A DNA stretch of 64,000 nt, taken from a virus. This document shows, piece by piece, positions 3,201 through 21,433 of the stretch. The stretch's first letter is position 1; each line of letters begins with the position of its first letter. The notes under the pieces were generated by a model. The model did no database searches, was not told the DNA's origin, and saw only the letters and a program-made list of their open reading frames with translations. The position numbers were made by a program, and so were the translations under genes. The stretch lies in the IMG/VR virus record IMGVR_UViG_3300034095_001343, positions 50,930 to 114,929 of that record, one strand, 5' to 3'.

Positions 3201-6010
3201 CTTGAAGTTGCTAGATCACCAGTACCCAGTTCCATATAATCTATATCACGGGCATGCTTCATTAAATCATTTAAAACATCATCGGTTAAGTCATCTCTTG
3301 TTGACCAATTCTTAATCTGTGCTTTTACATAATTTGTAATAGCTTCATTGATAAGACCTTCTTGCTTTGAGTTACTAACACCCAAATTATTCAATTGAGT
3401 TTGTAACTGTAAGATTAAAGATTTCTGTGTAGCATTGATACCTTCAAGATCTTTTACAGAATATAATCCTTCAAAAGTTTTAATGAATCTATTGAAGTTA
3501 AGAACGTATGTAATGTATTCTGATTTGTCAAAGTTATCTACATTGTTTACATAGTCTGTAAAGTTTTTAATCTGCTTGAAAGCATCTCTTAATAACTCTG
3601 TAAATAGTGCAGCACGTGCCTTAGGACCTTCAGCCATTGCTAAGCTAATGGCAGATAGAGCATTAAGAATATTTTCTTCAGTTTGCTCTCTAGTTCTATC
3701 AATATAGATAGCACTTTTAATCTGCTCCATTGCTTTAAGCTTTGTTGTCAAAGCCATTCTATAGTTTTCTAAAGCTTGTGTAATAACTTCATACTCAGTA
3801 TATGGATCAGCAAAGTCTGTATCTTCTGGCATCTTTTCAGCATCTGTTAATTCTGAATCCCAGTTAACAGCATTGTCTAATGCATCATCAATGTTTTTCT
3901 CTAAATCTTCTAATGAAATTGAGTCAACATTTTTTGGAACAAGAAGATCAACATATAAACTATTTTGACTTGCAGGATGAGCCACCCATTCATCAGATCT
4001 AAACTCACCAGTGAATTCTTGCTGAGCATCTTTACCTTTGATACCAACTTGAATGTGGAAAGTAGAAGCACCCATTTCACTCATGTCTACTTCATAACCC
4101 ATATTTTCAAGCATCCTTCTATACATGTTTACTTGAATACCCTGTTGAGCTCTTGTAGAAAGACTTTCAATCCCTGCCTTTTTAAGATCACTATTTTCTC
4201 CTAGTTTATATTCTTGGTCATACTTAAGTTTACCTTGAAGTCCTACTTTAGTTTTAGCTTGCTCACTTAACACCATATCTCTTACAGAGTTCTTGCTTGT
4301 CTTAAGATCAACAATTCTAAGTTTACCATCTGGCAAAACAACAAGAATGTCAATTGATCCGGCAGTCTTTGACTTCTGGTCATAAACAACAACTTGAGGA
4401 ACGGCAACACCGCCACCTCTAGTAATCTCTCTAAGATTTTCTTGTAATTGTAAATAAGCTTTCTCAGCTTGTTCTCTATTAAGAACTTTCATTTGAGAAA
4501 AGACTTCATCTAATTGTTTATCTGAAGTTAATCCTTGCAATAACTTATCAAAGTCATTACCCAGATCAATGTTCAGTTTCTTATTAAACATATCTTCTTC
4601 AGAAAGCTTTCCTTTAATTCTTTCTGTAGTAGAACTGAAAGTCTCAGTTGTATCTAATAAGTTATAGTATACATGATTCTCTTCATTAAGAACAACAATT
4701 GGTCCTTCAAATCCGGCAGCCATTGAACCAACTTCTTCTTTTGTAGTTTGTGCTTGATGGAATAGTCTATTGATTATTTCAGCTTGAATTGCATTTGATT
4801 GTCTTGTAGCATAATCTACAGTAGACTGAAGTTCAGGAGTTAAAGAAAATCTAATCTTAGCATCTGCTCTAGCCGCTGCGTTAAACTGAATACCAGAAGT
4901 ATTTAACAACTTAGCAATATCAGATAAAGTAGTTGTAGGTTTAATGTCTTGAAGATTAATTCTCACAACTTCAGAAGGTGTTTGAGATGGTTGAACAACT
5001 TCAGAACTTCTTAAAGAAGATATATTAATACCTGTAATATATTTATGAAGATTGTTTATAATATCAGCAAACCAATCCAAAAACTCTTTTACTCTTTCTT
5101 TAAAGGTCTTGGTTGGATTTTCTTCATATTCTTTTTTGAAGTGTCTTGTCAAAGCTTGTGTAACAAGTTCAAGATCTCTGTGTCTTTGATTAAAACCACG
5201 TTTCTCACTATAAGCATCTTCAATTTGCTGACTTAATACTGGAAACATAGTCTTTGCTTCTGATAGTAATGAATCAAACAAAGCTTTATTATCTACAAAC
5301 AAAGCATCTGTAAATGGGTGAAGTATCTCTTCAATAGCTGTCTCATCTGTAACACGTCCTCTAATTAAAACAACTTTATTTGATAGAGGATTGAAATAAG
5401 AATTTACTTTTTCAAAAGGTACATTAGCTTTTTGAAATTCTGAAAGACTATTATAATAAGCTTGTGCCTCAGCAACTGAAACTAACTCTACTTCAACATT
5501 AGGAAACATTCTCATTAAATGAGTAACAACGTGTCTACTTCTAGTTTGATCCCAACCTCTTGTTGATTGCATCATATCTTTAGAAGTAAATACATTCTCA
5601 TCTACAGTAATTTTAACTAAATTTGCAGTAGGTTGAAAATTAACAGCCTTCTCAGGAATGTTATTAATATCAAGATATCTTTTTACTTTGTTCAGATTAC
5701 TTTGCAAAACTTGAGCATCATAAGCTCTAGTTTGTCTGTTAGAGTTATTTATATAATATAAATTACCAATCTTGATAATTAAGTTCTTCCTAGATAAATT
5801 ACCCAGAATAGCTTCTGCAAAATTTCTTTGCTGAATGTTAAAAGCAATTTTCTTATCCTTTAAGAATTGTTTTGCTTGTCCAACTGTAGGAAAAGCTTCA
5901 CTATTATTTACATTTTGCCAAGACGTAATTATTCCATCAACCTGTATATTGCTACTGAAAGCACCTAATAAGTTTTTATATTCTTGGGTATTTCTATTAA
6001 AACATGCCAT
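281..6010 (-). CDS. Giant virion (cargo-type) protein with degenerate zincin and PD-(D/E)XK nuclease domains, 1909 aa
   Basis: Last gene of the virion block, 3 bases after the polymerase gene. Residues about 195-315 look like a zincin-type domain in which the usual HExxH is replaced by EEILH (227-231) followed by PF, with a later ELVTQAL helix; the first zinc-ligand histidine is missing, so protease activity is doubtful. Residues about 480-640 carry a RecB/Cas4-like PD-(D/E)XK nuclease signature: GNDFD (484-488), GSID with D554, VDLKT with D568 and K570, and QxxxY (Q626, Y630). The remainder is mostly charged helical sequence; a hydrophobic segment near residues 1760-1780 is followed by a run of five Asp. 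In crAss-like phages the large proteins beside the RNA polymerase are virion cargo thought to enter the cell with the DNA; that role is inferred from position. The nuclease call rests on motif order and spacing. Confidence 0.8.
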   Translation of the reverse strand: MACFNRNTQEYKNLLGAFSSNIQVDGIITSWQNVNNSEAFPTVGQAKQFLKDKKIAFNIQQRNFAEAILGNLSRKNLIIKIGNLYYINNSNRQTRAYDAQVLQSNLNKVKRYLDINNIPEKAVNFQPTANLVKITVDENVFTSKDMMQSTRGWDQTRSRHVVTHLMRMFPNVEVELVSVAEAQAYYNSLSEFQKANVPFEKVNSYFNPLSNKVVLIRGRVTDETAIEEILHPFTDALFVDNKALFDSLLSEAKTMFPVLSQQIEDAYSEKRGFNQRHRDLELVTQALTRHFKKEYEENPTKTFKERVKEFLDWFADIINNLHKYITGINISSLRSSEVVQPSQTPSEVVRINLQDIKPTTTLSDIAKLLNTSGIQFNAAARADAKIRFSLTPELQSTVDYATRQSNAIQAEIINRLFHQAQTTKEEVGSMAAGFEGPIVVLNEENHVYYNLLDTTETFSSTTERIKGKLSEEDMFNKKLNIDLGNDFDKLLQGLTSDKQLDEVFSQMKVLNREQAEKAYLQLQENLREITRGGGVAVPQVVVYDQKSKTAGSIDILVVLPDGKLRIVDLKTSKNSVRDMVLSEQAKTKVGLQGKLKYDQEYKLGENSDLKKAGIESLSTRAQQGIQVNMYRRMLENMGYEVDMSEMGASTFHIQVGIKGKDAQQEFTGEFRSDEWVAHPASQNSLYVDLLVPKNVDSISLEDLEKNIDDALDNAVNWDSELTDAEKMPEDTDFADPYTEYEVITQALENYRMALTTKLKAMEQIKSAIYIDRTREQTEENILNALSAISLAMAEGPKARAALFTELLRDAFKQIKNFTDYVNNVDNFDKSEYITYVLNFNRFIKTFEGLYSVKDLEGINATQKSLILQLQTQLNNLGVSNSKQEGLINEAITNYVKAQIKNWSTRDDLTDDVLNDLMKHARDIDYMELGTGDLATSRDTILAVMDKIYKTKKQELLDNVETRNRTIAGLASRLQKLSPNKNTQEMYDFMLEFDDDGEFNGRYVQRLGRQYYKKQQELRDKLYDENGNALEYRDVSEAATAKKEDLEFNIKLAKAKSEYAAFWAAERVGLDDKLMDGDFHKYTDEFKTERAKFQYYVPVNGKPVWRRKAGVSDRAYQVYLAKYFNEVEYTYAKKDQNGNFTGAIVRESVFHAVKPQNRIANDYNLRTGERMVSEKYEKIMNPSDALGQTQKEFYLAFVNYYENQLLGKLPMGYRSQMLGNVPVVKGKLFQDIKAKPNIVGKLWSKATRSVNNLVSETAEQRGIVLDEEGNLIDQLPIFYTGRARTDEELAAINAEITALENNRKKGFVTRDAYDNQMPILKGRLATIQARPSKGEINKDMGTALMRFSSMAEHYEVMSTVEDTFKAFIKVLEQRSYQPADPGVTLGKWVKGKFIPKGKKGGAESNVVKRAKKWMSMVYYDNDRITKGFLEKVTDGLMEYSSLSYVAFNPFGNFNNYALGRINNTIEALGQRFFAGSSYARAEFEFNKRALPDLVVRLGAVAKKPFNKSDYDPEEPSSKYEALVDLFRMMDAKSDIRESQFGPEPIGKSWFRKAADFGYVLQDMAEYNVQTKIGMAILIDTMIMNKATGDIISMYDAFEFDSETKEAKLKDGYDTIVTLDRKNVDDEGKPKVIKEVKYTNDFRYQLRNKIREVNKQIHGNYAKDDRMVIQSYAVGRLAAQFHKWVAPAIKARFRREYFDENLGWMEGRYRAFWKFLAYSTKQLATFQLEFGKHSENFMEQYGYTGDGSQRDQRARDKLFGAYRTLGEIGIIMVTVALNGILAAMFSDDDDDTEFEKRMENFMRYQADRTYKELILFTPIGAQQIYQMFKSPIASTRTLGEFGEALSLSVMTPLAYLVEGKEDFYLDSDYVYQRGTRKREIKLYKNWADVVPILYSIKKYNEFLNLTNFYIK

Positions 6011-6013
6011 ATG

Positions 6014-9000
6014 TCAAAGATAACAATTATTAAAGTGATCTAAAAATTCTTGTTCATTTGTGAACTCACTATTTTCAAACAACTCAATAAAATCTTCAAG
6101 GTCTTGCACCTTAAATTTCATATCTGGATTGTCTCTGTGAGCTTTAAGTTTGTTTCTATTATCTAATGCCGCCTGACTAAATGGATCATCAATATTTGAA
6201 TCCCACCAAGTAGAAAGCTCTGGATATTTATTTTCACCAGCATCATTATCAGCAAGTAGATTATTGAAGAATGAGTTAGCTGAGATATCAATTGCTCCAC
6301 TAAGATCAATTAAATCTTCACCACCAGTTTCATCAACTTCAGGTTCTACAAGATCTTGATTTTCAATTGATTCTGCAGACTCACTTACTTTACTAATATT
6401 CTCACCATTAACTTGGATACCTTTTTCAGTAGCTACTACACTAGAACCTGCTGAAATTTTTACACCTTTTTCCAAATCAATGTTATCTAATACTGAGTCA
6501 ATATCAATTGAATCAAAAGCTGCATCTAAAGGATCTGAAGAGTTTACACTATTTACAAAGCTTCTTAATTTTTTTGTAGTAGGTCTTTCTCCAAACATAA
6601 ATCCAATTGGATTCTGAGCAGTTGAACCTTTTATGTCTACTTCAACGTATTCAGCATAACTACCAACAGCCTTATTATTAAAATTGATTAAATTTTCTGC
6701 TGGGAATAAGCTTTGTGTTTTTGCAAGTACATAGTATCTATACTCAGCTTTATATTCTGATCCAACATTTTGTCTAACAACCATTGGGAATTCTACTTCA
6801 GTGTGATAGTCAGAACCTTTCTTAAGATTGATATTCTTAAAACCCGCCTTAATTAATTCTTCTTTGTTTTTATCAAAAGTATCCGCCAATTGCTTAGTTA
6901 ATTTAGAAACAGGTGGAGTATTTCTTACTGAAGAAACATTGTTTGTTTTATCAAGTCTAGAAATACCAGCATATAAATCTACAACTAATCTTCGTACCAA
7001 GCCTGAAGCATTTACGTGAACAGGAGCTCTTAAGATAGCAGGATCTGCAACTTTTGCAGCTTTCTTTTCTTCTGCAGACTTCTTAGCCTTAGGATCAATG
7101 TTATATTGAAGATCTTGTAAAAGTTTTGCTTTTACATATTCAAATACAACCGGACTATTCTTTTTAAAGTCTGCAAGTTCTGGTGCTGAAATCAAATCTT
7201 TTGCAAAAATAACTTGCTTTCTTTCTGCAATCATATTTGTTAACTGCTCTACTTGCTCATCAAAGATTGTAATAAAGTCTCCTGCTTCAGCATTTGTGTA
7301 GTAAGAAGACTCTATTCTATTCATATCCTTTTTGAAGAACAAGCCAAATGCATTATCCAAACCTCTAACTGAGCTATTACCAACACTACCTTGTTTTGCA
7401 ACGTTATCTCCAAATACATAAATGGCTTCAGGATTAGATGTTGCAAGTGCTTTAGTAAATACTTTAGGCTCAATAGTAATACCTTTTGTTTCTGGAGCAT
7501 AGATTGCAGCTCTTACTTTTTTAATCACATAAGCATTAGGAGCTGAAGTTAGATAACCTTGCATGAAATCAATAACCAAATCATCCAGCTGCATACCAAA
7601 TGTTGACTGAAATACAGTATCATTAGGTCTTTCTATTGCTGCTTGTACAGTATCAATATGAGATAAGTAACCATCAAGAGCAATTGGAGCTACAGATTCT
7701 ACAATAGATTTATAACCATACTGAAGACCATCTTTAACCATCATATAATGAACAAGTGTCTTTGCATCAGATCTTGTTAAAGGATTTGCATACAAAGTCA
7801 TAAAGCCATTTTGGATATCTAGCTTTTGTGAATCATTATATCTTAAGAATGTATTTGCTCCCGCTAAATTTAAACCAGTCTTATTACCTTTCAAATTTGC
7901 TTTCTCTGTGATGATAAAAGACTTTAAGAAATAATTATTAGCACCTTCTTCAGTTGCTCTAAGTCTGTCTAATACTGCGGTTATATTCTCAACACCATCT
8001 TGATTATAAATTAATCCATTAGTAAGAGTAGCTACAGACTGTGCGTTATTAACTAAACCATTATGCATGTAAGCCTTAATAGTTAAGTATGATAAAAAGT
8101 CTCTAGCAATTTTAGTTTTAGTTTTATCTCTTAGTTCATAAGGTAGATTGTTTACAGTACTTTGGTAAACTACTTCATCAGTTACTCTTCTAAATAGAGG
8201 GCTTGCTGAAAGAACCACTTTAGGTAATAAGAAATTAGTAAACTCCTGGAATCTTTCAAGATAACCAGCTTGCCATGTTTCACCTTTAAATATAGGTCTA
8301 GCATCAATCATTGGTCTATTAACACCTAATGCTAAGAACTCTTTGTCAGATAAGTTAAGACCTAACTTTTCTGTTGCTTCATTTCTCTTATCAATTGCTT
8401 CAAGACCTTGACCTAAACCATTGGTAAGATTTATGATGTCTCCCATATATTTTGTAGTGTTAGATAAACTAGCAGCATTTAAGAATTGTTCTAAGATTGA
8501 AATTTCTTCAATCACCTGCATTTTTGTAATCTCACCATTTTCTCTAAGTTCAGCCATATCAGCTTTAGTAGCAGTTGCTTTAATTAAAGGAGTGTCAATT
8601 GCTTCCATCAAAGAATTTTGAGTAACAGAAGTTCTTATCTTTTCTTCTTTCTTCTCAAGAAATGCTGTTTGTAATGCTATAATTCTTTCTTCTACAATAC
8701 TTCTTGCATATACTTTTTTATCTGCAGAAGCATTAGCTTCCATAAAATAAGCTTGTCTAATAACAGGGTGGTTAACCAAAAGAACTGAAGTCTTTACAGG
8801 AACGCCTAAAGCTATTAGATTAGCTACAATAGAAAGAGCATTGATATTAAGACCAAGCTTAGCCAAAAGTCTTTCTTTAGCGTTATCCGTTGCTGCAGTA
8901 ATTAAAGCAGATAAGATATACTGAGTTCTTTGACCTTGACTACCATCTTCATTTAACTCAAATGTATTTCTAAAGTTGCTGAATGTAACTCCTCCAAATT

Positions 9001-12000
9001 CAATTTGAGGCAATACTTCTTCACCGCCAACTTTAGTGCTGGCAATTTTTACATCATACTCTTGAAGAAGATTTAAGTATAGGTTAGGTAATACAACCGC
9101 ACCAATTGATCTAGAACCTTCTTTGTTGTTAGCAAACATTCTAAGCTTGCCGTATAGGTTGTCTACATCAATACCTTCTTCTTCAGACAAAGCGGCCCAT
9201 TCAGGAAGTTCTGTCTTAAGTTCATCCCAAAGATCCTTTAAAACTTCTATATCTGCAGCCTCATAAGAAATTGCCACAGCTGTTCTTTGTTTACCGTTTT
9301 TATCCAACGCAGGCTTACCAGTATTTACAGTAGTTGTTTTACCATTCTTATCTAGGAATAAAGGTTTTCTTTCTGTAACATGGTCATTACCCATAAGAGC
9401 AACTTTGTAATCAAGAATATCATTGTTGATTGCTGCAGCATATGGTTCATGTCCAAATTTTTTCTTATAAGTCTTATATTGAGCTAAAGTAACAGGCATT
9501 CCTAATACTAAAAGAGCATTTATTGAATCTTCTTTTAAACCACGACTTTGAGCAGTTAATAAATCTGAATTTGTAATGCTTATATTCTTACCCGTACCCC
9601 TTCCATTATATTTATATAATGCTTCTCCATATATAGAATCTGAATCTTTTACTTTTTCGTTTACATATCTAACATAATCTAAATATTTATTATCTTCTGT
9701 TTTAGCTTTACCATATTCAAAGAACTCTCCATTCTTTTCATAAAACTCTTTAAACTGCATGTAAACCTTATCAATATCAAAGTCAGCTCCTGATATCTCA
9801 ATAAGTTCTCTTGCAAACACACCAGAAGAACCATAAGCGGCAGGCATAAAGTCTATCCACTTAACGTTATAAGTTGAATGGTTATCTTGTGAAGGAATAC
9901 GTACAGCAAACATTTTACCTACAACATCAGGAATAGATTTTCCTTTAAGTTGTAATTCTTTCATCACTTCTTTGTGATGAGGTGGTAATAACATCTCACC
10001 ATACTTTTGTCCTGTTGCTTTTCCTTTTGAGTCATACTCTTTCATGTTATGTCTCAAACGGTCAATAATAACAACACCGGCACCTTTAGATTTTTTTACT
10101 GCATCTTTAAGACCTGCAATATTTTCATCATTACCAGGATAAGAACCTTCATCAATATTAAATAGAATGTCAGGCTTACTAGCCATAGCTTCATATTGTG
10201 CTTCAGTAATAATCTCATGTTTATCTGGCATACCGTTTTCATCTACAGAAAGAACTCTTCTGTAAACTCTTATACCATAGTCAGAAACCAATGATACTGT
10301 TGCACCAGGTACCTTCTCATTAAATACACTCTTACTAAAATAGCTCATAAATAAATTCAAGAACTTATCATAAGTAAGAGGGTTGTTAAGATTATACTTT
10401 TGATTTCCTGATTCATCAAGTGAGAATAGTTCCATCAAATGACTTGAAGAACCTGTAGATGCAAGACTGGCTTCAGCATATCTTAAGTATGTATAAAGAT
10501 CTGCAGTAATAGCATTTTCTTTAATACTCTTCTGAAGTTCATCCATTGCGTAGTCTACATCAAAAGAGAATACTAAATTTCTCTTGTTGATATAATTCAA
10601 GTTACCTCTATCTCTAGTTGCTTTGTGATAAGCAGCTCTTACCTCACCTAATGTTAATTTCTCACCATTGATGATTACTTCTGTTGAATCATTTTGTTCT
10701 GAAGTAACCAAGGTCTTAACCTGAGTAGGATCTGTTATAACAGTTTTGTTAGATGGGTTGATTACCTGCAATCCTAAATAATTAGCATCAAGAGTAACAG
10801 ATTGATCTTGCCCTAATGGAGTTGTTGTTCCAGTAACACCATGAATGTTAGATACATTCTTTTGCATCATCTTTAAGGCTGATCTTGGAGCAGCTACTGA
10901 AACTGTATCATTTTCTTTTTCAAATGCTTCAAGCTTAACTCTTAAGTTATGTAAAGCAAGTTTGTTAGGTTTAGGAATAGTGTAGTTACCTTCAGAATCT
11001 TTCAATGAAGTAAACTGTGGTAATAATGGGAATGCAGACATCTTAACAAATGTTTTACCATCTGCATATACAAGCTTCTGAGAGTTGAGCATTTCTTGTC
11101 TCTTAGCATATCCTGTAGATTCTTCTGTCCCAAAAATATCCTCAGCACTAATATCCTCACCTCTTTCAATTCTATCAAACAATTCTGCTTGAGCCGGAGT
11201 AAGTTTACCAAAACCATATTGGAAGTTACGGAAAGCTTTAGTAGTCATCCATAACTGAGCATCCGCATTCTTAACTTCACCTACATTGTATGTTGCATTA
11301 ACAATAGGTTCTGTTAATTCAAACAATGAGATTTCTTGTAATGGTTTAAAAATACCATACTCTGGTGCAGCTACTGTACTTGCAGCACTATAGTAAGATG
11401 CAGATTGTGCTTTTGCTCTTTTAATTTCATCAACAGCATCTTTCAAACTATAAGCACTATCACCTAACAAAATCTGATTGATAGCTGTGGTATTAATATA
11501 ATCATTAAAGAAGATCTGCTTTAAGTTGTATTCAGTATCTTCAGGAATAATGTTTAGTAATCTAGCAGATTTTTGGGCATCTCCAGTTACTGCACCACCT
11601 GCTGTCTGAATACCATTGGTTAAGAAAGTTCCTAACCCACCTTGTGAATCAACAACTTTCTTGTTAGTTTTTGAACCAACAAGTTCATCTAGTGTAATAT
11701 TAAACTCTGCAAATTCTTGGTCCATTCTATTTTGCAAGAATGCTTTCAACTCTGATTCCTTTATACCAAGCTTTTGGATAGCTTCAGCAAAAGTTAATCC
11801 TGCAAACTCTGGAGAACGTGCAGCTTCGGTTAGTTTATTTACGTAACCTTCTACTTCAAATCCACCAACAAGACCTGCAACTTGTTCCATTAAATTAGCT
11901 TCTCCAGCTTCCATCAAATCATACATGTACATAGGTTTCTTACCTTGTAAGAAATTTTGCTCATTGCTTGACTCTACATAGAACTTCTTAGTTCCAATAC

Positions 12001-15000
12001 GTACTTCATATTTGAACTGATCATTTTGAATAAGTGAAATAGAACCCTTAAGATCTTCAAAGATTCTTTCTCTATTCTCAGGAGTAACTCTTACCAAACC
12101 TCTACCAATAATTCTCTTTGGTACATTCTTATCTCCATCTTTAGTTTTTACAATAGCATCACGGACAACACCTGTAGATGTAAAACCAATAAACTGTTCT
12201 GCAGCTTTTTTATCATATACAAGAGAAGTCTGATCTCCTTTTTCAATTCTCGCTAACTTGATATCAGAAGTTTGAATTGTAACAATACCTTGACGGCTTT
12301 CTTTCTTCTGACCTAGTGGACTTAAAAGAACACCTGTTTTATGGAAGTTGAAAGCTCTAGCTTTATTTACACTATCACTTGCTACATTGATAGGAATGAT
12401 TTCTTCAGTTCCTGTCTCTGCATTTGGAATTGCGAGTGCGTTATATCCAACATGTAACTCTTGAGTTGCAGTTTCAGGATTAGATTCTCTTTGTATTCTT
12501 GCAAATTCTACAGCAACATTATTCAATATAGCATCAAGAGCTTCTTCTGTTAAAATAGTTTTCCCCCCTTTTTTATCTACAGCTTTAAATACAGGAAGAG
12601 TAATCATGTCACCAGTATTTGATGCTTCAAGTACACGTAAAAGTACTGGAGCTAATGTAGCAACCTCTATAGTTCCATCTTCTTTTGTCCAGGAAACAGT
12701 ATTAACTTTTCCAGTCAAAGGATCTACAGCATATGTGTAAGAGTTAATCAAGTTAAGAATAAACTCTCTTGGAGTTGAATCACCATAGGTTGTGCCTGAT
12801 GACGGAGTTCTACCTGAAGTTTCAGACATCAAACCATTTTCATCTACATCTATATTTCCTGTTTTTGAACCGGCAATTCTTAGAATTCTTAATCTACCTT
12901 CTGCAGAAAGCTGTTTAAAAGCCTCACTGTTTAATAAAAAGTTATTTATAAGATACTCATCTGAATTCTTAAGTTCTTCAATCTTAGAACCTTCACCGGC
13001 AACATCATTCAATGCAGCTATTTGTTTCAGGTGAAATGAAGGTAATTGGTGAGCATATACCAAGTCTCCATTTGGATTCTTAAATACAGATGCTCCAACA
13101 TTCTCATCAAAAGCAGCATTACCTAATGCAATTCTTCTAAGTCTGTTTCTTGCACCATCATCTGTATCACTGAATAGATCTTGATTACCTTCTACAATCT
13201 TTTTAATTTCTACAATATCTTGATAGTTCAAAGCTTTCTCATCTGCATTAGCATTCAATAAAGCTTTTTGATATCTTGTAGGTCTTTCAATATTTTTAGC
13301 AACACTAAATTCAATAAACTTAGGACTCAAGCTGATACCTAAATTCTCTTCAAGAACTTTTGCTGTTTGTTTAGCAAACTCTGCAAGCTTAGTATCAGTT
13401 AATGTCTTAAGACTTTTTTGTGTTATAGAATCACCAGCAACAAACTGAAGTCTGTTTAAAAGCTTATCTAAAGTATTTGCTACTACTTTTCTAGTTCCTT
13501 CATCTGTACGTAGTTTCTTAGACTTTTGCACATAGGCTTGACCCCATCTATCTACTTGAGTATGAGCGTCATCTCTATTAGCTGCAGTATAAGTGTACAC
13601 TTGGTCACCACTACTTCTATGTATAAAGAGGTAGTCAACCTTAGCATTCTCAAAACCTTTTAATACTGCTTGAAGAAGTAAAGGTCTTTTGATACCTTGA
13701 TTTAATTCTTCAACAGTTATTTCAGCACCAGCTTTAAACTTCTCAATTACTTCTGCTGTATACTGAGGAAGTTCTCCGTTTTCAAGTTGATCTTCCCAAG
13801 TAATACCTAAGTCATTGAATAATTTATTTACTACTGCTTCTGTCTGAGGATTGTTAATTCCAAAGAAGTAAAGCTGTTGTAAAATTTGAATAGGATCATT
13901 CAAGTTTTTAACGGCCTTTAAGAAACCATTGTATGCTGTAGCAAAATCTACAGTAATCATTAACTTCTCTCCAGTCCCCGGTACAATCTCTCCATTCTCA
14001 TCTCTTTCAGGAGCAATCAAGTAATCATTACCAAACTGATCCTTTTCTGAGATAGGAGTTGTCCCAATATATTTTCTCAAGAAAGAAGACAAAGAAGAGA
14101 ATCCACCAATGCTGGTTACATCTTTATCATACTGATCTGTAGTTCTAAGTCTATCTCCTACTTGATCATCTGTATCTTCAAGATCTTCTTCAATCTTTCT
14201 TGATTTAATTTCATAATATTTTAACTGATCATAAACAGCTTCTTTGATGAAGTCTGAGAACTCAGAAAAAGATTTTTCAATATCTCTAAGATTTCTCTTT
14301 TGCTCAGGAGTAAGCTCCATATTACGGTAAGCTTCTCTCTTAGTACTGTAAAGAGCTTTGAATCTATTGAAAGAATCATTAACCGCTTTCTTTACATTGA
14401 AATTAGAATCTTTATTTTCTTGCTCAAGCATAATAACTCTTGCAGAAATAGAAGACACTACACTTCTTGCAAAGTCATTATCTAAAGTTCTGTAACCAAA
14501 AGCACCTGTTTCACTTTCAATCATCTCTACAGGAATAATCTTATTGGCATTTAAAGTAATACCTGTTGCAAGACTATCTGTAAATCTGTTATTGATTGGA
14601 GATGCTGATTTAAATTTACCAGAATCAATATCTTTAAACAGTTGTTGTAGTTCATTACGAGTATATCTGTTAAACAAAGATTTAATCCATTCAATAAGTA
14701 TAGTAAAGTAGTTTTTAATTGCCGGATTAGCTTTTGTAGATCTAGGATCCTTCTTGAACTTTTCAAACTCATCAGCCATGTATTCTTCATAGAACTCTTT
14801 CTCAAGAGCTTTTCTGCTCATTGCTTTATATAAGTCCGCAGAGTTTCTAAACTTACCAAGCTCTTCTTCAAACTTATCACCAAGCTTTCTTTTTACTTCT
14901 GCTTCAGCAATCTTGTAAAGTTTATCCTGTCGTGCATTAGAAAGTAAAGATCTAAATACACCATGGAATGCTTCGTGATATTTGTATGGGGATTTTACAC

Positions 15001-18000
15001 CAGTATACAATGTACCTTTTACAGTCATTCCACCAGCAATTTGATTCATTGACAAAACAAAGGCACCTACACGTACACCATTAGTTACAAGGTTATCTCT
15101 AAGATTAGAAATATCCTCAATACTAATAAAGTCCGGTAAATTATCATTAGCCCAAATTACAAACTCATCAATATCAGCCACTTCTTGCTCACTAAGTTTG
15201 TCACTTACAATCTTGTTAGCAAGTAGCTTTCTTTGTATCTCTCTGTTGCGGGCAATTAACTTTTGTCTTTCTGGATTGTCTTCCATGAGTTCACTTGCCT
15301 TAACTATGTCCTTCGGGTTAGCAGTATCAATCTCTGTTTCAATCTCTTTAATTCTTGCTAAGTTCTGTTGCAACTCTTTCTTGAGAGACTGTGTGTCAGA
15401 ATCAACATTGTTATTTCTTTGAATCTTGCCAGCAAGTAATTGAATCACAGGTCCAGAGACAGCATTCTTTACCATTCTTTCCTCACGCGGAGAAAGCTTT
15501 TCACCTTTTGCAATCTTATTTGCAACTTGCTGTTTCATCTCAAGAGGTAACTCTTTGAAATCTGCTTTTGCAAATTCTTCAAATACCTCATCAGACATAT
15601 CAAGAACACTATCATAAGCTTCCTCAGAAGTTTCTAAGTCAGCTACAGGATCTTCAACTACTTCAACTTCTTGTTGTGCAGCTGTTGTTGCAGCAAACAA
15701 TAAAGCTTCTTGGATAGTATTTGAATCTGCAGTTAATCTGAGCTTATAATTAGTTCTTACATTTTCATTAAGAGTTGTTACAGTGTTATCAAGAACTGTA
15801 TCAATGCTTGCATCTTCAGCAAAACTTGCTCTTACATTATAAATTGCAGAATTTTCTTTACTAAAAAGTTTTAACTCAGTCCATTCAGGAATTTCTACAG
15901 AAGAATCTTTTTTCTTCTTTGCTTTAAATTCCTCAGCAGCTTTATCAATACCTTTCTTTTGAAGATTATCTAAAAGTCTTTCAATGATATCTGGTTTCTC
16001 AGCACCTTGATAATCAAGAGTACCTTGTCTACCTTCAGCCAAATATGAACTACCTACAACAGATTTACGTTTCTTATCATAAAGTTCTGCTCTAAATGTA
16101 CCATCAGCGTTAACATTAATTTCAACTGTGTATCCTTCAATATTAGTTGTAATGTAAAGTTTCTTGTTAAAGGCCTGATTAAACTCTACGTTAAAGTTTG
16201 AGTCTTTAATTTTCTTTGTTTCTACAGAACCTTCACCGACTAAGTTTTCATTAATAGTTCTAACACCCTCTTCAACAAGTTCACGGCTTAAAGTAAAAAT
16301 TTCTTCTTTTTCAAGTTGTCTACTTTTTAAAGGGGCACCTGTATAAATACCATTTGGTGTTTTAATTAAAGCAACATATCTCTGTGCTTTTTGTAGGGTT
16401 TCAAATAAACTTGGTTGTGATACAGCCAAATCTTGTTTAAGCTTTTCTATGAAAGCTTCTCTATCATCAATATCTTCAATGTCAGTTAAGATACGTGTTG
16501 ATATAGTGCCATCTTTAAGTTTGTCATTAATCATAACAACTTTAACACCATCAACTGTATTATGCTTAAGTTCTTTTACTGACTTTGGATTAGTTTTTAA
16601 ATCAACACTTGATCCAAGATTAAAACCAAATTCTGCAAAATCACTCATAGGAATAACAGCAGCATCTTTACCTTCCATTTTATCAGCAACCTGATCAACA
16701 AAAGCTTGTTGAATTGCAAAGTTGTTTAGAATAGTATTCACAGCATTAGCCTGCTGTAATGGGTAGATTGTAAAGGTATTCTCAATGATCTCCTTAGTAA
16801 GATTAACAGGATTTACAACCTGATCTTTTTCATTTAAGAATTGTATAGAACCGGTTCTTACAAAAGCAAATATACCATCAGGATGAGAACTAACAGGCAT
16901 CCCTTTTTCAGAAATGATTTGATTAATTCTTGCTGAAGTTTGTTGATTACCAAAAGCAATACCTACAGCAAATGGTTCAGCAACTCTATTGATATAAGGG
17001 TTTGCTTCTTTGAAGTTACCTTCTTTATCTTTTGTTTGATATTTCTTTCCTGTAGTTTTACCACCAGCAGGATTTCTAGTAATAACTAAAGTAAGAGTTG
17101 CCTTTTCTTCTGGAGTTAAATTATCCAGAATAGTCTGAAGTCTGGCATTAGCCATCATGATTCCTTCAGCAGCAGCTGTTCCCATACCATTTTCTAATGC
17201 ATAAACAGCAACAGCTTCATCAACTAAAAGTCTTGAAGCATCTTCAGGAACTTTATTAAAGTTAAATCCTTCTACATTGTACTCTGACTTAAACTCAGGC
17301 TCTGTAACTTTTTTAGACAGCTTATGTCTATCTTGTTTAGATTGACCAGGTTTAATAGAATCAACAGGCAACAAGAATAGCTTCTTGCCTTTTTCTACTT
17401 CTGCCGGAGTACCAATTACCATGTAACGGTTACCTTCTGCATCTGTTACAGTAGATCCATATGATACTTCCTTACCACCAAAAGTGAAAGTTGTTGTATC
17501 AACTGATACATCATCTAATTTCTTAGCGGCAGATCTAGCTTTATTTATATTGTCAAAGGTTGCACCTACAGGTACACCAGCTGCAGAAGTCATATCTTCT
17601 GTAAGTAGTTTACCTTTCTTGTCTCTAACTGAATACAATGTTACAGGTACAGGCATTCCTGTATCTGGATCAACTGTTGAAGTTTTAGTCTCAACAATTT
17701 GTACACTGTTGAAAGTATTATCTACAACTTTACCTACAGCCTTAACGTCTCCAATATCTGCATCTTCAACATCACCAGCTTCAAAGTCTTGTTCAATATC
17801 AATGAAGTCAGAGAAGTTTGTTTCAGTACTACGGAGCACCTTTCTAACAAGGTCATTAGTCTGTTGCTTTTCTAACCATTTATCAAAGCCGTTATCAGCA
17901 TTGAACTTAGCAAGGATTGCTTCAGGTTTATCTTTTGACTTTTGTAAATCTTTGAACCATAATTTTTTCAATGCATCATATGCTGTAATATATTTTGCAG

Positions 18001-21000
18001 CCTCAGCACTATTCACCCAACTGTCCATTGCAATAGGAGCTTTTCCTAAATTAACTTGACGGTTGGCATACTCTTTATATTTTTCTTCAAGCACTTGCTT
18101 GATCATTGGATTATCTGTTTCCTTACCTCCAAAGATTTCCACATCGGGAGTATCCTCAGCTAAGTCAGCTTCTTCCAATATCTCAGCAGTATCTTTCTTT
18201 CTAGTTTGCTTTTCTTTAGAATCAATCTTTTCTTCAGAAGTTTGCTCTGTTACTTGAGGAGTAACTGCAGCTTTATAAATACCAATTAAAGCTTGAATTT
18301 GATTATAGATATCTTTATCAGAGATTTGATTTACTGCACCTTTTTCAGTAAAAAAATCTTGAAGCACATCAATATTACCATTTTCCATAAACTCTTTAAC
18401 CTGTTTTGGATCTGGATAAACTTCAATTTTTGCTAACTCATTTAAAAACTGATTGATTTCAATTTTACCTATATACTTTTTAATTGAGTTTCTAAATACT
18501 TCTATCCTATTTTTGTAAATATTTTTAAAGAAATCATAAGTTCTTTGTGTAATTTCATTAAATCTTTCAGGATTATTCATGTACTCAATAGACTTATTAT
18601 AAGCAATTGCTCTACCTTTTAATTCACGGTAGTCTACAATTTTCTTAAGAGCTTCTCCAACTTTATCTGAATCGGCAAATGTATCATTTGACTTAGCAAG
18701 TTTTTGCACATACTTTTCAAAAGCTGATGTTAGTTTATCAACCTTACGTCTATCAAAGCCACCATCCTTGGTGAGATTCTCTTCTGCATATAACACAGAT
18801 AAGATTCCACTCAGACCTTCAAGCTTTGCAGTCTTAGCTTCAATTATATCTTTAGCTTCTTTAGGATCTAATGTTGCAATTTCACTAACTAAAGTTGCAA
18901 TTTCTTTTTGCAATGAATTTTCATCAAGCAATACGGTAATATCACTTGCTGCCATTTTACCTACAATAGGATCAGCTGCTAATTCATCATATATTGACTG
19001 TGATCTTTCTAAAGCTCTCTTAAAACCATCTTCTGTAAACATGTAAAGATATCTTGCATGTTCAAAAGACATCTGTTTAATCTTTTCTTCATTCCATTCT
19101 CTTGATCCATATTTATAAATATTTGGATCAAATGGATTATTAAACTTAGATTTATTAGTATAATATGATTCTTCAAGTTGATCAACTTTAGTAATCATAT
19201 CTTGCAATCTAGTTCTAATTTTACCTGATTTAATGTCAGCTTTAAATGATGGAAAAGCTTCTATTAATTCAACATCTGTAAGTTTTAAATAATCTTCAAA
19301 CTGCTGTCTAAACTCACCACTTTTGTTATTATTAAGAACTGTATAAATTGCTTGAAACTTAGAAAAGTCTTTAGCATCAACAAAGTCAAAATTTGATTGG
19401 TCAAATGCAGCTTGCAGCATATCTATACTAGCCTGACTTTGTGTTATATGATTTACCTTATTTGTATCAAATATTGATTCCATTGGGTTATTCGCAGTAA
19501 CCTCATAGACATCATTAAGTGAATCAACAAGACCTTTTATAAGTTTTTCTTTGTTTTCCTTGTACTCAACAAGATTAGCTTTTTGTTTTTCTGTACCAAA
19601 ACCTAGTGCGCCATAATTATAAATTGATGGGACACCTTGAAAAAAAAGTTTTTGAGGACCTTGAGCAATACCACCCATTAAGAAACCTGACATAAATGTT
19701 TCAAATCCTTGAGCACTAAATTGAGATCCAACAGCTGATGCAATTGAAGCAGACATTAAGTCATGACCACCTGCAGTAGGATGTTCAATCAATGTCTGAT
19801 GGTAATGTTTAGTTCCTTCAGCAATCGCTTCCTGTGTAATTTCTTGAAGACCTTCAGATAGGTTTGCTGCAAAATATCTCAATGAAGCTTGTCCAGCTAA
19901 CTTTGCACTTCCTTTTATACCAGCTGCTTTTAAAGTTTTTAAATAACCTTTTACACCATCTCCAACATATTCAAAAGGTCTTGTTACAACTTTACCTGCA
20001 GCATCTCTTAAACCTTTTGTTTTTAAAATTCTACCTCCAATACCTTGAATGTTATCTCCAAGCATTCTAGATAAGGTTCTATTATATGCGCCAAATGCAT
20101 TACCTAAAACAAGTTGGTTAGATAGATAAATAGTGGGAGCATTTAATAGGGTTGTATAATATGCAGCTCTTGAAGCTTTTTCTTCAATGTTCTGCATTTG
20201 GTCCGTTGTAATTGGTGAACCATTATTAAGTTGACTCTGTAAAGCATATCCGTTAGCTAATTGTTGAGAGTAAACCGTACCTCCTTCCATCTTAGATTCA
20301 GCAAGTGCTAAGTTTAAAGATCTTACGTCTCTATAAAAACCACCAAATGTCTTAGAAACCTTTGCCATATTAGAAAGGTTTTGTGCTCCATTTGCTGTGC
20401 TGTTTAAAGTTTTAATTGCTTGTACTGTTTCTGGAGCAATAATGTTTCCTAAAAAATTACCACCAGCTTTAACTGTATTATATAAATCCTTTGCACCATC
20501 TACAGAACGCAAACCTCTGTACATATTTCTAGTGGCATTTGCTAATCTAGATAAATCAAATGTATTTAGAATTGTTTTTCCAAGTTTTGCAATATTAAAA
20601 GCCGTTCTTTCTGCAGCAACAACATCAGATACAGGGTTTAAAAAACCTTGTGCGGCAGCAGCACCCCAAAGAGCAAGTTCTTCTGCAGCAATAGATCCAA
20701 TTACACCAGCCGTGTAACCAAACTGAAGTGCCAAGTTATTAGTAAAACCACTTACACCGCCTCTTGTAGAATTACCAATTCTCATTGCATCTGCAAACTC
20801 GCTTGCAGATTCCAAATCTTTCCCTGTAAAATAATCATCACTATCAAATAAATCACCAATAGATCTATATGCAGATAAAAACCCTGTACCTGCAAGATTA
20901 GCAAACTGAACTCTCATTCTACTTGCATCATCCCACCAAGTAGAATTAGCATTGTAGTATTCTTCATTATCAGCATAAGGATGCCATCCTAATTTAGAAA

Positions 21001-21433
21001 ACTCAGGATGCTTATAATATCTATCAAAGTTGTGTGATCTAATACCGGCATAAATCGGATTAGCAATCTTAACTTCTCCAGTGGGTTTTGTAAACTTACC
21101 TGTATTAGAAAGTAATTGAAGTTTACCTTCGGGTGTAGATAAATCTAAACCAACGCTTTGTCTATAAGGATTATAGGTACTAGTTGATAGGGTTGGATTA
21201 GGATCATTCATGTTACCAATAGGTGTTGGTATTGCACTATTGATCTTTTTAGCATGAATATCCAACATAGCCTTGTACTCAGGACTCATCAACTCACTAT
21301 ATTCAGGTAAGTCTGGAGATACTGTAAAATCACTAATAGGTTGAAATTCAAACTTACCACTTGAAGGAACCATTGGATTCAATGTTGGTAATGCACCTTC
21401 CTGTTGAAGCTGTTGATTAATATTATCTGCCAT
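6014..21433 (-). CDS. Giant virion RNA polymerase polyprotein with zincin metalloprotease domain, 5139 aa
   Basis: A single uninterrupted frame of 15.4 kb. RNA polymerase part: the universal DxDxD metal-binding loop is present as GADFDIDK (DFDID at 3884-3888), preceded by AVRIPSQDNHS, comparable to the beta-prime RAPTLHR strand, and followed by a FANNKEGSRSIG segment typical of crAss-like polymerases. An upstream segment with SALKM (3518-3521, candidate Lys 3521) and YLGLQVINP probably forms the beta-like double-psi barrel. Zincin part: HEAFH (2153-2157) gives the two His ligands and catalytic Glu, with EEYMADEF downstream supplying a likely third ligand. Residues about 230-265 are Ala/Gly-rich and hydrophobic. 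Near residue 4670 a segment IYVFGDN...NAFGLFF recalls a small phage domain of unknown function. The crAss-like family polymerase is packaged in the virion and transcribes early genes after ejection; here this is inferred from homologous motifs and position. The zincin may cut the polyprotein or other cargo. Confidence 0.9.
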   Translation of the reverse strand: MADNINQQLQQEGALPTLNPMVPSSGKFEFQPISDFTVSPDLPEYSELMSPEYKAMLDIHAKKINSAIPTPIGNMNDPNPTLSTSTYNPYRQSVGLDLSTPEGKLQLLSNTGKFTKPTGEVKIANPIYAGIRSHNFDRYYKHPEFSKLGWHPYADNEEYYNANSTWWDDASRMRVQFANLAGTGFLSAYRSIGDLFDSDDYFTGKDLESASEFADAMRIGNSTRGGVSGFTNNLALQFGYTAGVIGSIAAEELALWGAAAAQGFLNPVSDVVAAERTAFNIAKLGKTILNTFDLSRLANATRNMYRGLRSVDGAKDLYNTVKAGGNFLGNIIAPETVQAIKTLNSTANGAQNLSNMAKVSKTFGGFYRDVRSLNLALAESKMEGGTVYSQQLANGYALQSQLNNGSPITTDQMQNIEEKASRAAYYTTLLNAPTIYLSNQLVLGNAFGAYNRTLSRMLGDNIQGIGGRILKTKGLRDAAGKVVTRPFEYVGDGVKGYLKTLKAAGIKGSAKLAGQASLRYFAANLSEGLQEITQEAIAEGTKHYHQTLIEHPTAGGHDLMSASIASAVGSQFSAQGFETFMSGFLMGGIAQGPQKLFFQGVPSIYNYGALGFGTEKQKANLVEYKENKEKLIKGLVDSLNDVYEVTANNPMESIFDTNKVNHITQSQASIDMLQAAFDQSNFDFVDAKDFSKFQAIYTVLNNNKSGEFRQQFEDYLKLTDVELIEAFPSFKADIKSGKIRTRLQDMITKVDQLEESYYTNKSKFNNPFDPNIYKYGSREWNEEKIKQMSFEHARYLYMFTEDGFKRALERSQSIYDELAADPIVGKMAASDITVLLDENSLQKEIATLVSEIATLDPKEAKDIIEAKTAKLEGLSGILSVLYAEENLTKDGGFDRRKVDKLTSAFEKYVQKLAKSNDTFADSDKVGEALKKIVDYRELKGRAIAYNKSIEYMNNPERFNEITQRTYDFFKNIYKNRIEVFRNSIKKYIGKIEINQFLNELAKIEVYPDPKQVKEFMENGNIDVLQDFFTEKGAVNQISDKDIYNQIQALIGIYKAAVTPQVTEQTSEEKIDSKEKQTRKKDTAEILEEADLAEDTPDVEIFGGKETDNPMIKQVLEEKYKEYANRQVNLGKAPIAMDSWVNSAEAAKYITAYDALKKLWFKDLQKSKDKPEAILAKFNADNGFDKWLEKQQTNDLVRKVLRSTETNFSDFIDIEQDFEAGDVEDADIGDVKAVGKVVDNTFNSVQIVETKTSTVDPDTGMPVPVTLYSVRDKKGKLLTEDMTSAAGVPVGATFDNINKARSAAKKLDDVSVDTTTFTFGGKEVSYGSTVTDAEGNRYMVIGTPAEVEKGKKLFLLPVDSIKPGQSKQDRHKLSKKVTEPEFKSEYNVEGFNFNKVPEDASRLLVDEAVAVYALENGMGTAAAEGIMMANARLQTILDNLTPEEKATLTLVITRNPAGGKTTGKKYQTKDKEGNFKEANPYINRVAEPFAVGIAFGNQQTSARINQIISEKGMPVSSHPDGIFAFVRTGSIQFLNEKDQVVNPVNLTKEIIENTFTIYPLQQANAVNTILNNFAIQQAFVDQVADKMEGKDAAVIPMSDFAEFGFNLGSSVDLKTNPKSVKELKHNTVDGVKVVMINDKLKDGTISTRILTDIEDIDDREAFIEKLKQDLAVSQPSLFETLQKAQRYVALIKTPNGIYTGAPLKSRQLEKEEIFTLSRELVEEGVRTINENLVGEGSVETKKIKDSNFNVEFNQAFNKKLYITTNIEGYTVEINVNADGTFRAELYDKKRKSVVGSSYLAEGRQGTLDYQGAEKPDIIERLLDNLQKKGIDKAAEEFKAKKKKDSSVEIPEWTELKLFSKENSAIYNVRASFAEDASIDTVLDNTVTTLNENVRTNYKLRLTADSNTIQEALLFAATTAAQQEVEVVEDPVADLETSEEAYDSVLDMSDEVFEEFAKADFKELPLEMKQQVANKIAKGEKLSPREERMVKNAVSGPVIQLLAGKIQRNNNVDSDTQSLKKELQQNLARIKEIETEIDTANPKDIVKASELMEDNPERQKLIARNREIQRKLLANKIVSDKLSEQEVADIDEFVIWANDNLPDFISIEDISNLRDNLVTNGVRVGAFVLSMNQIAGGMTVKGTLYTGVKSPYKYHEAFHGVFRSLLSNARQDKLYKIAEAEVKRKLGDKFEEELGKFRNSADLYKAMSRKALEKEFYEEYMADEFEKFKKDPRSTKANPAIKNYFTILIEWIKSLFNRYTRNELQQLFKDIDSGKFKSASPINNRFTDSLATGITLNANKIIPVEMIESETGAFGYRTLDNDFARSVVSSISARVIMLEQENKDSNFNVKKAVNDSFNRFKALYSTKREAYRNMELTPEQKRNLRDIEKSFSEFSDFIKEAVYDQLKYYEIKSRKIEEDLEDTDDQVGDRLRTTDQYDKDVTSIGGFSSLSSFLRKYIGTTPISEKDQFGNDYLIAPERDENGEIVPGTGEKLMITVDFATAYNGFLKAVKNLNDPIQILQQLYFFGINNPQTEAVVNKLFNDLGITWEDQLENGELPQYTAEVIEKFKAGAEITVEELNQGIKRPLLLQAVLKGFENAKVDYLFIHRSSGDQVYTYTAANRDDAHTQVDRWGQAYVQKSKKLRTDEGTRKVVANTLDKLLNRLQFVAGDSITQKSLKTLTDTKLAEFAKQTAKVLEENLGISLSPKFIEFSVAKNIERPTRYQKALLNANADEKALNYQDIVEIKKIVEGNQDLFSDTDDGARNRLRRIALGNAAFDENVGASVFKNPNGDLVYAHQLPSFHLKQIAALNDVAGEGSKIEELKNSDEYLINNFLLNSEAFKQLSAEGRLRILRIAGSKTGNIDVDENGLMSETSGRTPSSGTTYGDSTPREFILNLINSYTYAVDPLTGKVNTVSWTKEDGTIEVATLAPVLLRVLEASNTGDMITLPVFKAVDKKGGKTILTEEALDAILNNVAVEFARIQRESNPETATQELHVGYNALAIPNAETGTEEIIPINVASDSVNKARAFNFHKTGVLLSPLGQKKESRQGIVTIQTSDIKLARIEKGDQTSLVYDKKAAEQFIGFTSTGVVRDAIVKTKDGDKNVPKRIIGRGLVRVTPENRERIFEDLKGSISLIQNDQFKYEVRIGTKKFYVESSNEQNFLQGKKPMYMYDLMEAGEANLMEQVAGLVGGFEVEGYVNKLTEAARSPEFAGLTFAEAIQKLGIKESELKAFLQNRMDQEFAEFNITLDELVGSKTNKKVVDSQGGLGTFLTNGIQTAGGAVTGDAQKSARLLNIIPEDTEYNLKQIFFNDYINTTAINQILLGDSAYSLKDAVDEIKRAKAQSASYYSAASTVAAPEYGIFKPLQEISLFELTEPIVNATYNVGEVKNADAQLWMTTKAFRNFQYGFGKLTPAQAELFDRIERGEDISAEDIFGTEESTGYAKRQEMLNSQKLVYADGKTFVKMSAFPLLPQFTSLKDSEGNYTIPKPNKLALHNLRVKLEAFEKENDTVSVAAPRSALKMMQKNVSNIHGVTGTTTPLGQDQSVTLDANYLGLQVINPSNKTVITDPTQVKTLVTSEQNDSTEVIINGEKLTLGEVRAAYHKATRDRGNLNYINKRNLVFSFDVDYAMDELQKSIKENAITADLYTYLRYAEASLASTGSSSHLMELFSLDESGNQKYNLNNPLTYDKFLNLFMSYFSKSVFNEKVPGATVSLVSDYGIRVYRRVLSVDENGMPDKHEIITEAQYEAMASKPDILFNIDEGSYPGNDENIAGLKDAVKKSKGAGVVIIDRLRHNMKEYDSKGKATGQKYGEMLLPPHHKEVMKELQLKGKSIPDVVGKMFAVRIPSQDNHSTYNVKWIDFMPAAYGSSGVFARELIEISGADFDIDKVYMQFKEFYEKNGEFFEYGKAKTEDNKYLDYVRYVNEKVKDSDSIYGEALYKYNGRGTGKNISITNSDLLTAQSRGLKEDSINALLVLGMPVTLAQYKTYKKKFGHEPYAAAINNDILDYKVALMGNDHVTERKPLFLDKNGKTTTVNTGKPALDKNGKQRTAVAISYEAADIEVLKDLWDELKTELPEWAALSEEEGIDVDNLYGKLRMFANNKEGSRSIGAVVLPNLYLNLLQEYDVKIASTKVGGEEVLPQIEFGGVTFSNFRNTFELNEDGSQGQRTQYILSALITAATDNAKERLLAKLGLNINALSIVANLIALGVPVKTSVLLVNHPVIRQAYFMEANASADKKVYARSIVEERIIALQTAFLEKKEEKIRTSVTQNSLMEAIDTPLIKATATKADMAELRENGEITKMQVIEEISILEQFLNAASLSNTTKYMGDIINLTNGLGQGLEAIDKRNEATEKLGLNLSDKEFLALGVNRPMIDARPIFKGETWQAGYLERFQEFTNFLLPKVVLSASPLFRRVTDEVVYQSTVNNLPYELRDKTKTKIARDFLSYLTIKAYMHNGLVNNAQSVATLTNGLIYNQDGVENITAVLDRLRATEEGANNYFLKSFIITEKANLKGNKTGLNLAGANTFLRYNDSQKLDIQNGFMTLYANPLTRSDAKTLVHYMMVKDGLQYGYKSIVESVAPIALDGYLSHIDTVQAAIERPNDTVFQSTFGMQLDDLVIDFMQGYLTSAPNAYVIKKVRAAIYAPETKGITIEPKVFTKALATSNPEAIYVFGDNVAKQGSVGNSSVRGLDNAFGLFFKKDMNRIESSYYTNAEAGDFITIFDEQVEQLTNMIAERKQVIFAKDLISAPELADFKKNSPVVFEYVKAKLLQDLQYNIDPKAKKSAEEKKAAKVADPAILRAPVHVNASGLVRRLVVDLYAGISRLDKTNNVSSVRNTPPVSKLTKQLADTFDKNKEELIKAGFKNINLKKGSDYHTEVEFPMVVRQNVGSEYKAEYRYYVLAKTQSLFPAENLINFNNKAVGSYAEYVEVDIKGSTAQNPIGFMFGERPTTKKLRSFVNSVNSSDPLDAAFDSIDIDSVLDNIDLEKGVKISAGSSVVATEKGIQVNGENISKVSESAESIENQDLVEPEVDETGGEDLIDLSGAIDISANSFFNNLLADNDAGENKYPELSTWWDSNIDDPFSQAALDNRNKLKAHRDNPDMKFKVQDLEDFIELFENSEFTNEQEFLDHFNNCYL

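Follow-up and report, generated by a model that had tools for sequence, protein, structure and literature searches.

A zincin and a crAss-type RNA polymerase in one predicted 5139-residue chain: a candidate virion polyprotein of a crAss-like phage

The window analysed here, a 64,000-nucleotide stretch of a 114,929-bp virus record, carries one giant open frame that joins a conserved N-terminal module, a zincin-type metallopeptidase and a crAss-type RNA polymerase (Table 1). The explanation that best fits the data as a whole, the mechanism proposed below included, is that its product is the virion RNA polymerase polyprotein of a crAss-like phage, and we put the probability of this reading at about 0.75. 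As judged from the alignments, three modules (N-terminal, zincin and two-barrel polymerase) that are separate or otherwise combined in other Crassvirales form one chain here. By the same comparison this kind of protein is already known, since named gut phages carry the fusion and so do hundreds of environmental contigs. What is new here is the comparative pattern of zincin state versus fusion state. In the literature searched, which did not include Yutin 2018, Drobysheva 2021 or figures, we found no description or test of a zincin-RNAP fusion in Suoliviridae. Both crAss-like and N4-like phages pose the question of how a narrow tail lets out a polymerase of more than 5000 residues, and the family comparison makes one answer testable.

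Table 1. Position of the giant frame, its modules and motifs, and neighbouring genes in the window.
Feature	Position	Strand	Basis
Giant ORF: N-terminal module, zincin, crAss-type RNA polymerase, optional C-terminal domains	6014..21433	-	same frame in L001, L002, L003, L005
Conserved N-terminal module, residues 150-1050	18284..20986	-	alignment, hhalign, hmmsearch
Fast-evolving region between N-terminal module and zincin, residues 1051-2094	15152..18283	-	alignment
Zincin-family metallopeptidase domain, residues 2095-2300	14534..15151	-	alignment, hmmsearch, hhalign, dN/dS
HEAFH, residues 2153-2157, two zinc ligands and catalytic Glu	14963..14977	-	conserved motif
E2216-E2217, EE pair (E-E-Y-[LM]-A-D), likely third zinc ligand	14783..14788	-	invariant 31/31; EE 72/72
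N-terminal half of polymerase module by fold, residues 2301-3000	12434..14533	-	AF2 model covering 2095-3130
Variable junction, partly missing from most relatives, residues 3001-3289	11567..12433	-	alignment
crAss-type RNA polymerase catalytic core, residues 3290-4340	8414..11566	-	AF2 and Foldseek, hhalign
DFDID, residues 3884-3888, metal-binding catalytic motif	9770..9784	-	conserved motif
Conserved C-terminal part of polymerase protein, residues 4341-4650	7484..8413	-	alignment, dN/dS
DUF7831 domain, optional in family, residues 4657-4769	7127..7465	-	Pfam PF25176 E 1.9e-16
Portal protein, places phage among crAss-like phages	54471..57227	-	sequence match
1909-aa neighbour, gp65-like RNA-polymerase-associated protein	281..6010	-	hhalign phi14:2 gp65 Prob 98.6, E 6.5e-16
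1027-aa gene next upstream, weak similarity to JY46 XAI97383; located like the cargo protein genes of crAss phages	21443..24526	-	phmmer 3.3e-4

The phage, its giant frame and the spread of the fusion

Portal, terminase and head genes match those of crAss-like phages, and these matches point to a crAss-like phage, which belongs to an environmental clade of this group. The best match of the portal among phage records is Leptolyngbya phage Lbo-JY46 with 30% identity; csAssE-Sib and phi17:2 follow among the matches listed. The gene order is that of phi14:2, with the gp65-like gene, the polymerase and then the structural genes. The gp65-like neighbour also matches the C-terminus of Intestiviridae gp44 (hhalign Prob 99.8, E 5e-29), and window proteins of 294, 221 and 176 aa show weak matches to gp72, gp74 and gp73 of phi14:2. 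Elsewhere in the genome, the ribonucleotide reductase small chain carries a probable intein (G000:C1:47501-49522, equal to L100:7501-9522; Intein_splicing E 1.5e-4, below the cut-off), and LAGLIDADG and HNH endonuclease genes lie in the left arm (G000:C1:22235-24061, equal to L099:2235-4061, and L099:12240-12869).

The giant frame runs from ATG to stop with zero interruptions over 5139 codons, as the first-pass annotation had it. HEAFH is the only HExxH of the protein and DFDID occurs once, inside residues 3500-4300, both at the places reported before. A shuffled sequence of this length is expected to contain 0.022 HExxH, a low value because His is rare (40/5139), and 1.37 D-x-D-x-D, so that the DxDxD motif by itself says little. 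In our sequence comparison the weight for both motifs comes from conservation across relatives, rather than from their presence. Long uncharacterised regions had also been noted; this is right for Pfam and PHROGs, since the DUF7831 domain alone scored above threshold, and this domain is present in some relatives only.

We considered whether the frame is an assembly artefact or a chance fusion. The contigs L031, L040 and L051 (see below) show that single contigs may differ in frame or content. Against this, four other IMG/VR contigs carry the same frame with 5112-5156 aa from the first Met, and codon comparison with three of these four gave dN/dS values of 0.08-0.63, below 1 in every segment; the frame is therefore no joining artefact. 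Since the fusion is also common to independent contigs and named Suoliviridae and purifying selection acts on all segments, the comparison of sequences already refutes this explanation, to which we give practically no credence.

The polymerase core has relatives in at least 483 IMG/VR stretches. Of the 74 environmental loci that could be evaluated, 71 have HExFH and DFDID in one frame. Two of the exceptions, L040 and L051, have a break between these motifs, and L041, which equals L040 in length and gene layout, is intact. The third, L031, has an unrelated N-terminal part: in L031:3752-13633 the polymerase part is 78% identical to L032, and the first 1713 residues are unrelated and contain DUF7831 (1.3e-35) and HEYQH. 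This may be due to recombination, that is, a real swap, or to chimeric assembly, and L031 was left out as evidence. Among named phages, the fusion was found in all eight Suoliviridae genomes tested (cr50_1, cr118_1, cr109_1, cr60_1, cr10_1, cr1_1, cr130_1 and cr272_1), in frames of 4328-6386 codons (the longest reach 5801 and 6386) with HEA[FWY]H located 1444-1619 residues upstream of DFD[IV]D. Four of the eight genes contain 37-74 in-frame stops under table 11, and reassigned stop codons therefore appear to be used, as reported for the group (PMC7886860). The earlier view that a protein of this kind is rare did not hold: the fusion is standard in the Suoliviridae tested.

Public records (L010, L110, L111, L112) call giant polymerase frames DNA helicase, DprA-like or nuclear-pore-like. 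These names look like misannotations, and our findings bear on naming, since Suoliviridae giant frames carry them. In L011 and L012 (cr116_1 and bajarodcaudo virus 1) a break in the polymerase gene falls at DFDxD or directly after it, and the rest of the core follows in a later ORF, beyond an intervening ORF that is annotated as endonuclease in L012; this arrangement is as expected for an intron.

Polymerase, zincin and N-terminal modules

The AlphaFold (AF2) model of residues 3290-4340 (pLDDT 80.4, pTM 0.80, 31 sequences) matched the crystal structure of the phi14:2 virion RNA polymerase, 6vr4 (Foldseek E 2.6e-23, prob 1.00, TMq 0.56). This was the sole match below 0.001, and QDE-1 came next. 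CrAss RNA polymerases have two double-psi barrels in one chain (PMC7886860) and reach sizes of up to about 6000 aa (PMC10136315). From the match of the model to 6vr4 we infer two double-psi barrels in the core of the window protein; modelling in windows, which had been proposed as a check, thus found the structural match whose absence would have spoken against a polymerase. The model of residues 2095-3130 (pLDDT 73, pTM 0.60) also matched 6vr4 in the PDB (E 2.8e-10), and in BFVD it matched the giant proteins of cr118_1 (E 2.7e-16) and cr50_1 (E 9.8e-15). The polymerase module therefore probably spans about residues 2300 to 4650; the core placed previously at about 3500-4300 does include DFDID and has the 6vr4 fold, and the module as a whole is larger.

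A profile built from the window's own clade gave no polymerase match in an hmmsearch of PDB sequences, and fold and profile-profile comparison were therefore needed. In hhalign the clade profile aligned with phi14:2 gp66 (Prob 99, E 5e-18, 736 columns) and with the Intestiviridae gp44 family (E 1e-22, 747 columns), both being single-pair E-values. A profile with crAss sequences included found gp66 (6vr4) at E 4e-22, and tblastn linked the protein to known crAss-like RNAP members at 3e-6. G(A/S)DFDxD and RIP(S/T) are common to the giant protein and the crAss RNAPs, and D-F-D-I-D is invariant in the 31-sequence alignment. Together the fold match and the profile matches to gp66 and gp44 support the RNA polymerase core of the first-pass annotation. 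The fold is of the 6vr4/QDE-1 type and not that of the T7-like single-subunit polymerase of N4. A search with PF00940 gave no information either way, as its control remained silent.

The three HEAFH ligand and catalytic positions (H, E, H) and the EE pair 63-64 residues past the first H are invariant in 31/31 aligned relatives, and HE[AG]FH with the downstream EE occurs in all 72 related frames containing the zincin domain. This domain has the lowest dN/dS of the giant protein (0.078-0.089). Its region aligned with that of cr50_1 (hhalign Prob 89, E 2e-6), and the best hmmsearch match of its profile in the PDB was the Pro-Pro endopeptidase 6fpc, a weak one (E=0.006). Pfam returned only weak, unrelated matches for the 31 zincin members. 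The domain looks like a genuine, gluzincin-type metallopeptidase, and the intact zincin proposed before is thus supported by its conserved ligands; the assignment rests on sequence, since the Foldseek PDB search with the 2095-3130 model returned no zincin and the part before HEAFH was modelled at pLDDT <50.

The N-terminal module has homologues that are encoded separately: the Lbo-JY46 protein XAI97382 (hhalign Prob 97, E 3.7e-11, 520 columns; hmmsearch 6.7e-10) and a 2002-aa ORF in Spirosoma terrae (hmmsearch 1.3e-29). A profile search of the PDB with this module gave mitofusin as the best match (E 0.017), followed by bacterial beta' subunits (about 0.2) over a short stretch; we took these as chance. 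One relative (L024:5222-8896) has an insert of about 1090 residues, containing a second HExxH (HEYAH), between zincin and core and near the equivalent of the variable junction. This insert, including the stretch MTYAGIGSR, had no Pfam match; we presume that MTYAGIGSR resembles SLOG/DprA-like proteins.

Virion role and fate of the chain

That the protein acts in the virion, as suggested earlier, is supported by synteny with virion proteins of phi14:2 and crAss001, and for the window protein this is support by homology only. In phi14:2, gp65-gp67 carry MS/MS-based annotation and have the same order as the window genes. In crAss001, gp47, gp49 and gp50 were found in virions by MS, and partial unfolding was proposed for ejection through constrictions of <50 angstroms (PMC10172136). 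By analogy, the giant chain would be packaged in the virion and threaded partly unfolded through portal and tail, and its polymerase would transcribe the early phage genes with no need for the host polymerase; we consider this part of the mechanism very probable. The zincin would cut its own chain before or after ejection, most probably at a place that separates the N-terminal module from the polymerase, and the cut would let the polymerase refold on its own. For this step we see the odds as even. A 2017 paper proposed that zincins process the packaged giant proteins to which they belong, and it gives opposite cases: P1 DdrB is cut before packaging, and the N4 RNAP is packaged uncut (PMC5512222).

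In favour of self-processing, the zincin is the most constrained part of the protein (dN/dS about 0.08), its ligands are intact throughout, and HExxH is kept in each of the eight Suoliviridae fusions. Against it, Intestiviridae keep an HExxH zincin on a protein that is already separate from the polymerase, and in N4 a virion RNAP that likewise carries a zincin domain goes into the particle uncut (PMC5512222). The proposed search for cleavage sites around the zincin revealed no convincing conserved islands of this kind in the variable linkers, residues 1051-2094 included. The last two points lend weight to another explanation, in which the chain, like the N4 virion RNAP, is packaged and ejected whole and never cut, the role of the zincin being in encapsidation, folding or docking. 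The zincin domain of the N4 RNAP lies in a region needed for encapsidation, yet the protein is packaged unprocessed (PMC5512222), and a 2025 preprint on the N4 structure treats this RNAP as one multi-domain chain that must unfold (PMC12633501). However, neither the catalytic Glu nor the full set of ligands is needed for a purely structural role, yet 72/72 frames keep them invariant, and the domain is under the strongest constraint. We regard an uncut chain as a serious explanation that falls somewhat behind self-cutting. The zincin could also be an effector that enters the cell by injection and cleaves proteins of the host at an early stage of infection, with the fusion serving for delivery only. 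Such a role was proposed for some zincins of polyvalent proteins (PMC5512222), and as in polyvalent proteins, optional domains occur in the same proteins (DUF7831 here, the second HExxH in L024). As to membership of the polyvalent proteins, RNAP and zincin lie in one predicted chain, and no LPD domain scored above the Pfam cut-off. Effector domains usually vary, however, whereas this zincin is the most conserved part of the protein and stands ahead of the polymerase in two lineages alike; we think an effector role improbable.

Self-cutting also agrees with the state of the zincin in differently built genes. HExxH is intact in those chains that have a module ahead of the zincin (window clade, Suoliviridae, Intestiviridae gp45). 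Where the polymerase frame starts near the zincin position, HExxH is absent (Steigviridae phi14:2 gp66 and cr128_1 polymerases) or replaced, with EEAFH in Spirosoma oryzae and EESFH in S. terrae for HEAFH. In S. terrae the N-terminal module is a separate frame of 2002 aa; for S. oryzae (L105) no such module turned up upstream, and its zincin mutation may therefore be decay. The pattern of losses, as read from the sequences, fits a self-processing enzyme, and these losses may be as few as two events. A tentative generalisation, to which we give slightly less than even odds, is that the Crassvirales zincin is a protease whose self-processing depends on the fusion: it persists as long as the N-terminal module stands before it in one chain and decays once the polymerase gene starts at the zincin; the giants would be true polyproteins, with joints shuffled freely among families. 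If self-cutting occurs, one substitution in the active site should be enough to keep the chain whole, and the Spirosoma-borne relatives, with their mutated zincin and, in S. terrae, their separate N-terminal module, are a natural control for self-cutting.

Comparison with named systems

The Spirosoma loci were found in genomes of isolates, S. oryzae DSM 28354 (L105) and S. terrae KCTC 52035 (L108), with crAss-like portal, terminase and polymerase genes on contigs of 229 kb and 574 kb, respectively. Their portals (G001:C9:136558-139167, 32%, E 3.5e-100; G002:C33:529717-532380, 30%, E 7.5e-97) and the other genes mark them as prophage-like relatives. The cyanobacterial phage Lbo-JY46 (PP438436; L006, L007, L101) shares with the window a portal that is 30% identical and homologues of the N-terminal module and the gp65-like neighbour, but a polymerase core was undetected in six frames, so that both flanking modules are kept and the core is undetectable. 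DWDGD of its protein XAI97385 was dropped as a polymerase motif, having no profile match.

The giants of Suoliviridae resemble the window protein in having the zincin upstream of DFD[IV]D in one frame and an acidic third-ligand helix after HEA[FWY]H, and in cr50_1 a gp65-like gene follows the giant gene. They differ in low sequence identity, in undetectable homology of the N-terminal module and in the apparent stop reassignment in 4/8. Phi14:2 gp66 shares the fold, the catalytic motif, the gene order and the profile match, but it is a polymerase alone, of 2180 aa and without HExxH, and the upstream gp67 is a separate gene. Carjivirus communis (crAssphage) has the same kinds of modules, with gp44 annotated as RNAP catalytic subunit and gp45 as RNAP-associated protein fused to a zincin protease; unlike in the window, the zincin is separate from the RNAP and the gp65-like part is fused to it. 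The gp65-like gene is thus separate in the window, cr50_1 and Steigviridae and fused to the polymerase in Intestiviridae gp44. Since the modules are arranged in equal order but separated or fused differently among phages, gene boundaries fall at different places. The virion RNAP of coliphage N4 (gp50) is likewise a giant packaged polymerase fused to a zincin, with similar delivery (PMC5512222, PMC12633501), but its polymerase is of the single-subunit T7 type and its zincin follows the polymerase; this resemblance is convergent and does not reflect kinship.
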